From NCBI GenBank assembly GCA_020027535.1, contig JAHRAK010000068.1, forward strand, positions 1 to 33,988: DNA of 33,988 bases. Reading direction: 5' to 3'. The DNA comes from Nitrospirales bacterium. GTDB taxonomy: Bacteria > Nitrospirota > Nitrospiria > Nitrospirales > UBA8639. Made by a program: the position numbers and the translations under genes. A model generated the notes under the pieces. The model was not told the origin of the DNA and did no database searches. It was given only the letters and a program-made list of their open reading frames with translations. Position 1 is the first letter of the stretch. Each line of letters starts with the position of its first letter. Below, in pieces: positions 472-14,909 of this stretch.

Positions 472-1775
472 TCAATGAGGGGTGCCGTCGGTTTTCGCAT
501 AGCTGCGGACGTTGAGCCATTCATCCACTTTTCCGGATGCGACCAGCCATTCAAACCAGGCGAGCCACAGCGCCTGACGCAGTTGAAGGGCGCTGTCCTG
601 GCTGTCGATGGTCCGGCTGGTTTGCACCAGGAATTCCGTGGCGTTGAGTTCGCCGGATAGCCACAGGCGACGGAGATGGTCTGCCTGTTGCTGAGCGCTG
701 GACGGCCCGATGCGCTGCCAATCCCGCCAGGCGTTGTGGGCGATCCCGTAGCGCTCGAACGCGTTGACGAGGCGGGCGCGGGCGCGCCGTAAGATGTCGT
801 TGACCGTCTGTTGCGCCTGCCGGTATTGCTCGTAGGCCGCCGTGACTTCATATCTGAAGGGATTACGAAGGGGGAGGGGGAGGGTCAGGTTCACCCCAAG
901 CAGCGCCTGACCGGCCTCGTCTCCGCCGGTTACGCCGACGGTCGGGTCGAGGACTCTTTGGCGCTTCCGTAAAGAAATCGCTGCTTTGGCTGACTCGACT
1001 CGACTCGACGCTGCGCCGCTTGCACCTCCGGTAACGCCGTCAATAAGGATTCCAGGTCATCCTGGGCCGGCAACGCGGGCAGCCCTGCCTCCAGCGTGGG
1101 CCAGGGCGTGGTGATATCCGGAGGGATGAGGTTGGTCACCTGTTGCCGGGCATCGATCAGCGCGGTTCTCACGGTGGCTTGTCTCATCCGGGCGTCGGCA
1201 AAGACCAGAATCGCCAGGTTGAATTCGACCCGAGCCATATCCCCGGCCTCAAAGCGTTTTTTTGTCAGCGTGGCGAAGTCCTGCATCAAACGAACGCGCT
1301 TTGTCGCGAGGACGTCGCGTTCGACGCCCGTCTGGTAGCCGGCCAGACCCGATAACAGGCCCGCGGTGACGGCCCGGCGCGTGAAGATATAGTCGGCGTG
1401 AACGGCGAGGCGGTCCGCCGCCGCGACCGCGGTACGGGCCGAGCGTTTGTCGATCAGGTCGATCCTTTGCCGTAATCCGTAGTAGTGCCTGTTTTCATGG
1501 CCATGTTGCGAGTCGTATGTGAATCTCGGGTTGTAGAGGGGTTGCGATGCGGCTGCTTGAAACGCCCCCCTCGCGTTCAACGCCGAGCGCGCCGCTTGGA
1601 CGCGCGGGTTGGAGGGAACGACGTTCCGCACGAATTCAATCAGCGCGGGGCTGGAGACCGGAAGGGCCGACACCGCATTCTTCCCGTTGGGCGGTTCGGT
1701 CGCCTGGCCGGCGGTGGCCAGGCTTCCGAGAAGCAAGGCGGTGAGAACAGCTCTTGAAGGTTTCAATCGACACAT
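472..1775 (-). pseudogene. czcC: CzcC-like outer-membrane efflux protein, frameshifted
   Basis: This is a TolC/CzcC-type outer-membrane factor, the outer channel of a tripartite metal efflux pump. The first part (1775 to about 1010) carries a hydrophobic signal segment (SRAVLTALLLGSLATAGQA) and the first helical repeat (AARSALNARGAFQAAASQPLYNPRFTYDSQ). The second part (to 472) continues in another frame with VNLTLPLPLRNPFRYEV and the second helical repeat. The frames split in a GACTC pentanucleotide repeat at 992-1010. Removing one 5-base unit restores RRVESAKAAISLRKRQ without a gap. The start is ATG at 1775; a TTG at 1787 is possible. The combined length of about 434 codons is normal for the family. 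It lies between the ZIP gene and czcB. Confidence 0.75.
992..1010. repeat. GACTC pentanucleotide microsatellite at the czcC frameshift
   Basis: Three exact tandem GACTC units (992-1006) are followed by GACG. On the coding strand they read as GAGTC repeats inside czcC. A five-base unit shifts the frame with each copy gained or lost. Two units would give one continuous CzcC frame; three units break it. Confidence 0.8.
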
Positions 1776-2919: not shown

Positions 2920-3261
2920 CTAGACCTTGCCGTGGTCGTCGCAGTGCTCACCATGTGGATGATGCAGGTGACCGCCGACGAGATAGTCCGTGTGATCCCC
3001 GTGGGGAACGGCTTCGTGGCCGCAATCGGCGCCATGTTGATGCCCCGCGGCATGGTCGCTGCATGAATGATCGGGCGTACAGGCGTCGGGGTTCTGGCTC
3101 GTGACGCCTACTGCATGTTCATCATGATGATCTTCATGCTGGTGGTGCAAGTGGCCATCGTGCAAATAGTCGGTGTGCCCTTCGTGCTGAATCGCGGTAT
3201 GACCGCAATCGGGACCATGGGTATGGTCGCCGTGGTCGTGAGTTTTGTGATCGTCAGTCAT
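2920..3261 (-). CDS. Duplicated His-rich putative metal-binding protein
   Basis: This is a small soluble protein of 113 aa with no signal peptide or membrane segment, composed largely of His, Asp and Gly. It contains two copies of one module. The first runs about residues 15-46 (HGPDCGHTAIQHEGHTDYLH, then DGHLHHQHEDH). The second runs about residues 76-110 (HGADCGHEAVPHGDHTDYLV, then GGHLHHPHGEH). Each module has one DCGH and one HTDYL-x2-GHLHH element, so each may form one metal site. I know no assigned function. Buffering or delivery of zinc, nickel or cobalt is inferred from composition and from the ZIP and CDF neighbours. A good AAGGAG lies 9 bases before the ATG at 3261. Confidence 0.8.
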   Translation of the reverse strand: MTDDHKTHDHGDHTHGPDCGHTAIQHEGHTDYLHDGHLHHQHEDHHDEHAVGVTSQNPDACTPDHSCSDHAAGHQHGADCGHEAVPHGDHTDYLVGGHLHHPHGEHCDDHGKV

Positions 3262-3446: not shown

Positions 3447-4485
3447 TCAGTAAGGCGACGGACGCGCATGGGCGAACAGATGGTCAACGTGGTGGTCTTC
3501 GGTGCATCCTTTCTTCGATTTTTCCAACTGGAGCGTAATGTGACCGATACCGAAGTCACGGGAGGCAATTTCCCGCATGCGATGGCGCAAGGTGTCGAGG
3601 TCGCCCTGGTAATCGGGATCGATGAGGACGTGCGCGGTGAGCGCCTCGTAACTCGGAGCGATCGTCCAGACGTGGACGTCGTGGATCAGGGTCACGCCTT
3701 CCACTTCTTCGATCTTGCTGCATAGGCCGATACACGTCAATATGTTCGGGGGTCCCTTCGAGCAGCACGTGGACGACCTTGGCAAGCAGACTCCAGGTGC
3801 TTCTGAGGATCAGGATGCAGATCACCACGCTGACGATGGGATCGGCAAGCGTCCACCCGAAGGCCCAAACGAGGCTGCCTGAAATGACCACACCGACGGA
3901 CCCCAACAGGTCGGCCATGACGTGCTGAAAGGCTCCTTCGACGTTGAGGCTGTGCTCGGCGGAACTGTGAAGGATCCAGGCCGCCCCGACGTTGACGAAA
4001 AGACCGATCACCCCGACGGTCAGCATCAGCGCGCCGTTCACCTCGGGCACCTCCCAGAAACGGTGGTAGGCTTCCATGGCCACCCAGGCGGCGACCAGCC
4101 AGAGCGTGAGAGCATTGATCAGGGCCGCCAGGATCTCGAGATGGTGAAAGCCGAACGTGCGTTCCGTAGTCGCCCGTTGAGTGGCGAACTGCATGGCAAC
4201 CAGCGCAAGGGCGATGGAGGCCGCATCGGTCAGCATGTGTCCCGCGTCGGCAAGCAACGCCAGACTGCCGGACAGGATGCCGCCGATGACCTCGGCGAAC
4301 ATATAACCGAGAATCAGGACGAAAGCGGAAAGTAAGGCTGTCTTGCTCGCATTGCGCAATTCGTGGGAATGGTCATGTCCACCAAAACCGTGATGATGGT
4401 GGCCATGGTCATGCCCGTGCCCGTGATCATGCTCGTGCTCGTGGTCGTGGGTATGACCGGTATGCTTGTCGGAGGGAGAATCCAT
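3447..4485 (-). pseudogene. czcD: CDF-family metal exporter (CzcD-like), frameshifted
   Basis: This is a cation diffusion facilitator, an inner-membrane proton/metal antiporter that exports zinc, cobalt or cadmium from the cytosol. The His-rich N-terminus (about residues 8-42, HDHEHEHDHGHGHDHGHHHH) leads into six membrane segments. The metal-site signatures are LLADAGHMLTDAAS and QHVMADLLGSVGVV. The frame ends early because of a one-base shift near 3728-3735: after EGTPEHIDVYR it reads out of frame. In the next frame the cytoplasmic domain resumes as LCSKIEEVEGVTLIHDVHVW and runs to 3447. Dropping one C from GGCC joins the two cleanly. It is either a true pseudogene or a one-base sequence error. 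No clear Shine-Dalgarno precedes the ATG at 4485; a 12-bp direct repeat lies there instead. Confidence 0.75.
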
Positions 4486-8905: not shown

Positions 8906-10339
8906 TTATTGGGACAGGTGTAAGACCAACAGCTTTTGGTCCGAGAGTTCCTGGATCGTGTATTTGACGCCTTCACGTCCCAGCCCGGAATCTTTCATCC
9001 CGCCGTACGGCATGTGGTCGGCCCGGAACGTCGGGATTTCATTGGCCAGCACCGTGCCGACGTCCAGGGCCTGGTAGGCGCGGAAGATCGCATCGACGTT
9101 GCGGGTAAAAATCCCGGCCTGGAGTCCATAGGGGGAGTCATTCACCATGTCGAAGGCCTGGTCGAGCTGTTGGTACCGGGAGAGGGTGATGACCGGACCA
9201 AAGACTTCTTCGCAGGAGATTTTCATGCGTTGGTCCACGTCGGTCAGGATCGCGGGCCGGATCAACGCCCGGTCACGAGTCCCGCCCGTCCTGAGCCTGG
9301 CGCCTTGCCGGACGGCTTCTTGGATCCAGGTCTCCACCCGGATGGCCGCGCGTTCGTCGATCAGCGGACCGACGACCGTGGAATCGTCCGCGGGGTCCCC
9401 GGCAGCCAGGGATTCGACGAGCGGGAGCACCCGGTCGAGAAAGGCGTCATACACGTCGTCGTGGAGGTACATGCGCTGCACGGAAATGCAGGTCTGTCCG
9501 GAATACGCAAATCCGCCCGTCACGCACCGTTGTGCGGCCTGGTGCAGGTCGGCATCGGGTTCGATGATGACCGCGGCGTTGCCTCCCAACTCGAGCAGAA
9601 CCCGTTTTTTCCCTGCTTTGTCTTTCAGGCTCCAGCCGACCGCGGCGCTGCCCGTAAAACTCAAGGCTTGAATTCTCGGATCGCGGACCATGGATTCCGC
9701 CAGGGCGTTTTCGCACGGCAGGATGCTCAAGGTTCCTTCCGGGAGATCGAGTTCTTGAAAGAGCCGTCCCAATCGCAACGCGGTGAGCGGGGTTTGCGGA
9801 GCCGGTTTCAGCAGAATGGGATTGCCGACGGCGAGGCACGGAGCCACTTTATGCGCGACCAGATTCAGGGGGAAATTAAACGGGGTAATGCACAGGACCG
9901 GCCCGATCGGCACGCGTTGCCCAATGCCCAGGTGACGTTCCATCCCCGGGCTGACGTCCATCGGGATGACTTCTCCCGGTATCCGTTTGGCTTCCTCGCA
10001 CGCGATCGAAAAGGTTTGAATGGCCCGGTCCACTTCACGCCGGGCGTCGGTGATGGGTTTGCCCGCTTCCAGGCAGATGGTTTGGGCAAAGTCTTCCTTT
10101 TGTTCTTTCAGCCTGCCGGCCACGTGTTGAAGTGCCGTGGCGCGGGTATGGGAAGAAGAGCGGGCGAGACTGGAAAAGGCTTTCAGGCTGAGGGTCACGG
10201 CTTCTTCGGCGTCTGCCGGTTGGGCGAGGCAGACCTCGGCGATCGGGGTTTCGGTAAAGGGGTTGGTCACGGTCTGACGCGTAGGGGTTTCACGCCATTC
10301 GGAACCGACGAGGATGGGAGCGATGGTTTCCACGGACAC
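8906..10339 (-). CDS. NAD(P)-dependent aldehyde dehydrogenase
   Basis: This is a soluble ALDH-superfamily enzyme that oxidises an aldehyde to its acid, 477 aa. Seen directly are: the proton-relay Asn155 (ITPFNFPLNL), cofactor-binding Lys178 (LLKPAPQTPL), the FTGS nucleotide loop at 228-231, general base Glu250 (LELGGN), nucleophile Cys284 (GQTCISVQR), and the C-terminal EEVFGPV block. The GQTCISVQR form is shared with lactaldehyde- and semialdehyde-type members; the substrate is not determined. With arginine decarboxylase next to it, an aminoaldehyde from polyamine breakdown is one possibility, by context only. The start is GTG at 10339, with no Shine-Dalgarno in front, so the true start is uncertain. 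Confidence 0.88.
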   Translation of the reverse strand: MSVETIAPILVGSEWRETPTRQTVTNPFTETPIAEVCLAQPADAEEAVTLSLKAFSSLARSSSHTRATALQHVAGRLKEQKEDFAQTICLEAGKPITDARREVDRAIQTFSIACEEAKRIPGEVIPMDVSPGMERHLGIGQRVPIGPVLCITPFNFPLNLVAHKVAPCLAVGNPILLKPAPQTPLTALRLGRLFQELDLPEGTLSILPCENALAESMVRDPRIQALSFTGSAAVGWSLKDKAGKKRVLLELGGNAAVIIEPDADLHQAAQRCVTGGFAYSGQTCISVQRMYLHDDVYDAFLDRVLPLVESLAAGDPADDSTVVGPLIDERAAIRVETWIQEAVRQGARLRTGGTRDRALIRPAILTDVDQRMKISCEEVFGPVITLSRYQQLDQAFDMVNDSPYGLQAGIFTRNVDAIFRAYQALDVGTVLANEIPTFRADHMPYGGMKDSGLGREGVKYTIQELSDQKLLVLHLSQ

Positions 10340-10400
10340 GGGAGGAAATCAGGCGCAGTGTTGAACGTTCAGCCGTACTCGCATGATGACAAGGGGCGTC

Positions 10401-11105
10401 TTATAAGGACTCGGAAGAAGTTTTTGGGGAAGACGCCGTTTGGAGCAGCTTGTCGATCTCTTCTTTGAACACCTCATAGGGAAAGGCGCCGGGGATCACG
10501 ACGGCTTCTTGCGGATGATCCGTGACGTACAAAATAAAATGCGGGGTACCCCGGATACCCAGTTGGCCCGCCTCCATCCGATCTTTAAAAATGTCCTGGG
10601 TATAACGTGATGCCTCGAGGCATGCGGTAAATTGCTTGGCATCGAGCTGGAGATCTTCAGCCTGCTGCCGGAGTTGCGCCGCCGAGAATTTGTTGCTGCT
10701 TGTAAATAAACGGTCGTGCATCGCCCAATACTGTCCCTGTTCTCCCGCGCATCGGGCCGCCATGGCGGTATCCACGCTCGGACCGCTGGGGGACCGCGGG
10801 AAATCACGATACACCAGGCGCATCTTGCCGGTGTCAATGTATTCGGAGAACAGGATCGGCCAGGTTTCTTGGAAAAACTTTTCGCAATACCCACACGTGA
10901 AATCCGAATATTCCAAAAGCGTGATCGGGGCCTGAGGGTTGCCGCGGACCCGGTCATCTTCCTCGGTAAACCCTTGACCCGCTTGGGCCCCGGCCGACAA
11001 CGCGAGCCCGAGGCTCAAAACCGCAATCGCCAGCCCGTTTATGCTTTTCAAACGACCGGACCGCATGGGGGAAGATGTATACGCCGATGGTGAAGAGGTC
11101 TTCAT
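10401..11105 (-). CDS. DsbA-family periplasmic thioredoxin-fold protein
   Basis: This is a secreted thiol oxidoreductase-like protein of 234 aa. The N-terminal signal ends SLGLALSAGAQA, before GQGFTEED. The active site is C71-G-Y-C74 in EYSDFTCGYCEKFF, followed by the helical insert and the cis-proline loop GIRGTPHFILYV. This pattern fits the DsbA/DsbG-like 'thioredoxin_4' group, which oxidises or isomerises disulfides in the periplasm. AAGGAGA sits four bases before the ATG at 11105. An open frame reaches 11294, but its extra residues run through repeat DNA, so I reject the longer start. No dsbB partner is visible. Confidence 0.88.
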   Translation of the reverse strand: MKTSSPSAYTSSPMRSGRLKSINGLAIAVLSLGLALSAGAQAGQGFTEEDDRVRGNPQAPITLLEYSDFTCGYCEKFFQETWPILFSEYIDTGKMRLVYRDFPRSPSGPSVDTAMAARCAGEQGQYWAMHDRLFTSSNKFSAAQLRQQAEDLQLDAKQFTACLEASRYTQDIFKDRMEAGQLGIRGTPHFILYVTDHPQEAVVIPGAFPYEVFKEEIDKLLQTASSPKTSSESL

Positions 11106-14755: not shown

Positions 14756-14909
14756 ACTGAAGAAGTTGTGAGGATGTCAAGACGAATTCTACAACAGCCA
14801 CCATAAAAGAAGCGTCTGCCCGTTTGCAACGAGCGTTGGCTGGGACACGAATTTTTGTCGTCACGTCACGTCATATTCCGCAGGATGAGTTTCATTCCGG
14901 GAAGAGCGC

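Follow-up and report, generated by a model that had tools for sequence, protein, structure and literature searches.

A five-base tandem array interrupts a czcC-like outer-membrane channel gene in a Nitrospirales bacterium and probably reflects its recent loss

The pentanucleotide tracts of meningococcal opa genes are repeats of a five-base unit whose number sets the reading frame of an outer-membrane protein gene. These tracts undergo 0.007 changes per month when they contain five or fewer units and 0.16 when they contain nine or more, and 83% of opa genes, for which switching has been measured, carry at least five units (PMC7157529). The (CTGG)3 repeat of Escherichia coli lacI, whose mutation spectra were measured in Pseudomonas putida, consists of three copies of a short unit within a coding gene; there, gains and losses of one unit shift the frame, inactivate the gene and represent the largest fraction of lacI-inactivating mutations, with slippage as the accepted cause (PMC3485313). 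The heavy-metal efflux systems CzcCBA, CusCBA and ZneCAB share a gene order of OEP channel, HlyD-type adaptor and RND pump. Here we describe a czcC-like gene of a Nitrospirales bacterium that lies in a locus of this order and that, like opa, contains a five-base repeat in which the number of units determines the frame and, like lacI, harbors three copies of a short unit in coding sequence. Whereas the mutation frequency was measured in lacI, our data concern a single allele with a five-base unit.

The window that we analyzed comprises 33,988 nucleotides and is the whole of contig C105 of a draft genome (2.23 Mb, 140 contigs, contamination 3.33%), to which metagenome-assembled Nitrospirales and Nitrospira are the closest relatives that have been named. 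For comparison we used 14 genomes of the genus, this one and 13 others. The channel gene and the start of the adaptor gene lie at the beginning of the window, and the remainder of czcB together with an intact czcA begins at base 2 of a second contig, C107. The pump encoded on C107 passes the TIGR00914 model (CusA/CzcA family) with 993 bits against a cut-off of 701, the solved chains closest to it are ZneA and CusA, and the adaptor matches HlyD_D23. The order of channel, adaptor and pump is found as a single order in the relative G010 (L016). With a pump beside an adaptor and an OEP gene, the locus has the gene content of a heavy-metal RND efflux operon of the CusA/CzcA family; it differs from CzcCBA, CusCBA and ZneCAB in that its channel gene is broken and its substrate assignment is putative. 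Neither an NCBIfam model nor a solved chain matched the intact ortholog of the channel, and the name czcC is therefore given on the basis of context. Three other two-domain OEP proteins are encoded in the genome and, as candidates, might act as partners for the C107 pump. Another RND pump gene of the same genome appears to be split in two, with a TAG inside it (G000, contig C47, 21–3061; L061). A literature search on metal efflux in sponge-associated Nitrospira yielded nothing useful.

The czcC-like gene is located on the minus strand and is split into two parts. The 5′ part (930–1787) encodes ~264 native residues followed by ~21 out-of-frame residues, SQPKQRFLYGSAKESSTRPSA, up to a stop that ends at 930, and the 3′ part (472–991) continues in a shifted frame to a stop at 472–474. 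Both pieces match PF02321 (OEP), with 47.7 and 37.1 bits against a cut-off of 22, and the shift falls ~60% along the gene. At this point the minus strand carries a perfect period-5 tandem array (GTCGA/GACTC; 992–1009) of 3.6 copies and 18 bases, which reads GACTCGACTCGACTCGAC on the plus strand and in which the number of units sets the frame. An earlier note on this DNA had proposed that a GACTC array at 992–1010 puts czcC out of frame; the presence of two PF02321 pieces in different frames confirms this, and the residues quoted there agree with both frames flanking the array. The start of the array was placed correctly and its last base is 1009, so that the end given was one base too far. The array is the longest of period five in the window, and among 200 sequences as long as the window, simulated with a second-order Markov model, none contained a period-5 array of at least 18 bases. 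The simulation thus indicates that chance alone would not be expected to produce an array of this kind, and the observation stands. The three-unit motif, GTCGAGTCGAGTCGA, occurs once in the 14 genomes of the genus, at the czcC array described here. Another perfect array of period five, CGTCA x3, is located at 14859–14873 of the window and is apparently intergenic.

Orthologs of czcC are present in six of the 13 other genomes of the genus, with 83–93% protein identity over 255 residues. The earlier note had considered that relatives might carry three units with the same broken frame; instead, all six orthologs consist of a single open frame of 436–518 amino acids. In the DNA alignment each of them lacks exactly five bases at the position of the array, and this +5 is the sole indel within czcC relative to the six. 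The site reads CGTCGAGTCGATTC in five relatives, CGTCGAATCGATTC in one and CGTCGAGTCGAGTCGAGTC here; the five contain only GTCGAGTCGA, followed by a T, while the sixth contains an interrupted GTCGAATCGA. The array is not conserved with a varying number of units in these relatives, as no ortholog among the six has more than two units, and in one of them these are interrupted. Since none of the six has it as a repeat, the array is not ancestral, and the alignment therefore assigns two changes to the lineage of the window, a T-to-G substitution and the addition of one five-base unit, which together turn a two-unit stretch into 3.6 units. With intact orthologs and a copy here that is interrupted by a non-triplet indel, the gene has the makeup of a frameshift pseudogene.

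We consider it probable that the break in czcC is a recent, lineage-specific loss-of-function mutation and that it represents ordinary erosion. A T-to-G substitution beside the 10-base GTCGAGTCGA stretch would have lengthened a short repeat that arose by chance, and one five-base unit would have been gained via replication slippage; the order of the two events is immaterial to the result. If the assembled sequence is that present in the cells, as we infer, the frame shift would remove the second OEP half and leave ~264 native residues, and no working channel would be expected from the gene. To place the lesion in time, dN/dS was computed for each half in its own frame, and the counts are small. 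Compared to the nearest relative, the values are 0.35 for the 5′ half and 0.21 for the 3′ half; pairs of the window with all six relatives give 0.25–0.43 and 0.19–0.29, respectively, and pairs among the intact relatives 0.20–0.34 and 0.16–0.34. With such small counts, the 5′ half shows at most a possible slight elevation. Because coding constraint remains visible in both halves, the lesion appears to be young, and the usual constraint on czcC would have persisted into the very recent past.

Low dN/dS in both halves also fits a gene that is still used despite the break, either through cooperation of the fragments or through ribosomal frameshifting that joins them, and a GTG start ~36 bases past the first stop could restart translation. 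We regard continued use as extremely improbable: the gene is split close to where the second OEP repeat begins, and a restart fragment would lose part of that repeat; none of the six orthologs is split; and channels of the OEP/TolC fold are built from both repeats within one chain.

The same ratios, taken alone, would also be compatible with a gene that switches. The array would then be a contingency locus that toggles the outer-membrane channel, and hence metal efflux, by gain and loss of units. Such phase variation accords with a perfect 18-base array inside an outer-membrane protein gene, with a unit that is not a multiple of three and with two czcC parts that are exactly one unit apart in frame. 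However, unlike the opa tracts (PMC7157529), the czcC array has 3.6 units only, which is below typical contingency repeats, is located mid-gene and is missing in the relatives, in none of whose six orthologs it occurs; its motif is found nowhere else in the genus, and the island contains another frameshift, which does not involve a tandem repeat. In light of these data, phase variation is unlikely. The earlier note had suggested that the channel is either reversibly switched or recently lost. Recent loss agrees with the intact relatives, the unique +5 and the constraint seen in both halves, whereas reversible switching is not supported, given the lack of a repeat in the orthologs, the position and length of the array, the single occurrence of its motif in 14 genomes and the second, non-repeat frameshift. 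The loss that we favor need not be permanent, as reversion is possible, at a low rate, in an array of three copies.

The czcC-like gene forms part of a metal-efflux island on the minus strand. It is adjoined by an intact ZIP-family metal transporter gene (1913–2770), and the same island contains an intact gene for a histidine-rich small protein (2920–3261) and a gene for a CDF-family metal exporter (3447–4485), which is broken by one extra base at ~3728. This +1 is missing from all five aligned relatives and is not at a tandem repeat. G005, one of these five relatives, has its own independent 10-bp deletion in the CDF gene, and close orthologs of czcC and czcA are found in only seven of the 14 genomes of the genus. 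As the CDF gene has lost its frame both here and, through a separate event, in a relative, and as the island is present in seven of the 14 genomes, the data point to a patchy metal-efflux island that is eroding in more than one lineage.

Our survey of frame breaks outside and inside the window was limited to a total of 56 orthologous ORFs (66 kb). Among the window genes up to ~27.4 kb, no further frame breaks were found in comparison with G010 and G004; an apparent break at 10276–10987 was rejected, as it reflects a spurious ORF in G010 and the DsbA-like gene is intact. On contig C101, one-base shifts relative to G010 were found in a YcaO-family gene (L059, 1449–3844) and in an ABC-transporter gene (L058, 11018–13924), the latter with two one-base shifts that compensate each other. 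Frame breaks thus also occur outside the metal island, which implies that a general decay rate or assembly error contributes, inseparably from the erosion of the island.

Against recent loss, the CDF lesion and the frame breaks elsewhere could thus mean assembly errors, and the extra unit in czcC, as well as the CDF +1, would then be an assembly or strain-mixture error in the 140-contig draft. The end of the contig bears on this point. The start of the czcB-like adaptor gene is located at 93–455 on the minus strand, and homology to all relatives ends at ~93. Bases 1–99 do not belong to czcB and are identical to the interior of contig C112 (1999–2097), where the stretch is intergenic, between two genes, and includes a short hairpin repeat that recurs at several places in the genome. 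An insertion element in czcB was considered and rejected, as no transposase was recognized in the surrounding ORFs. Since czcB and C112 have six to ten bases in common at the join, and no transposase was recognized, a chimera at the end of the contig is a likelier explanation than an insertion, and the window probably begins with an assembly chimera. The overlap with the start of C107, where czcB resumes, is 15 bases and imperfect; no matching overlap was found when the opposite end of the contig and the start of C107 were searched. Hairpin-like intergenic repeats resembling GCGCCATCTCATGGCGC recur in the genome (L022, 1500–1550; L023–L027 around matches) and are possibly REP- or MITE-like elements.

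The probably chimeric end is a warning of flaws in the assembly, though it lies ~900 bases from the array. Together with the imperfect resumption of czcB on C107, the frame breaks elsewhere and the contamination of 3.33%, it lends some weight to an artefact, which we nonetheless consider rather unlikely. Any read spans an 18-base array, and the gain of a whole unit is not a usual sequencing error. Moreover, the other window genes that were compared are intact, with both breaks within the first 4.5 kb, and decay of the island is also seen in a relative, in the CDF gene of G005. Recent loss of the channel gene thus remains our preferred explanation.

The comparison with orthologs shows that the czcC repeat is new, and the locus cautions that disruption of a frame by a short tandem unit does not alone make a gene phase-variable. 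We think it very unlikely that the array is a newly born contingency locus, that is, a chance repeat in an uncultured Nitrospirales lineage that has only now reached a length at which it could turn a metal-efflux channel on and off, caught before any conservation. Should this be true, as mixed unit numbers would indicate, the locus would show a contingency repeat as it emerges, and Nitrospirales would include a lineage whose metal efflux can be switched.
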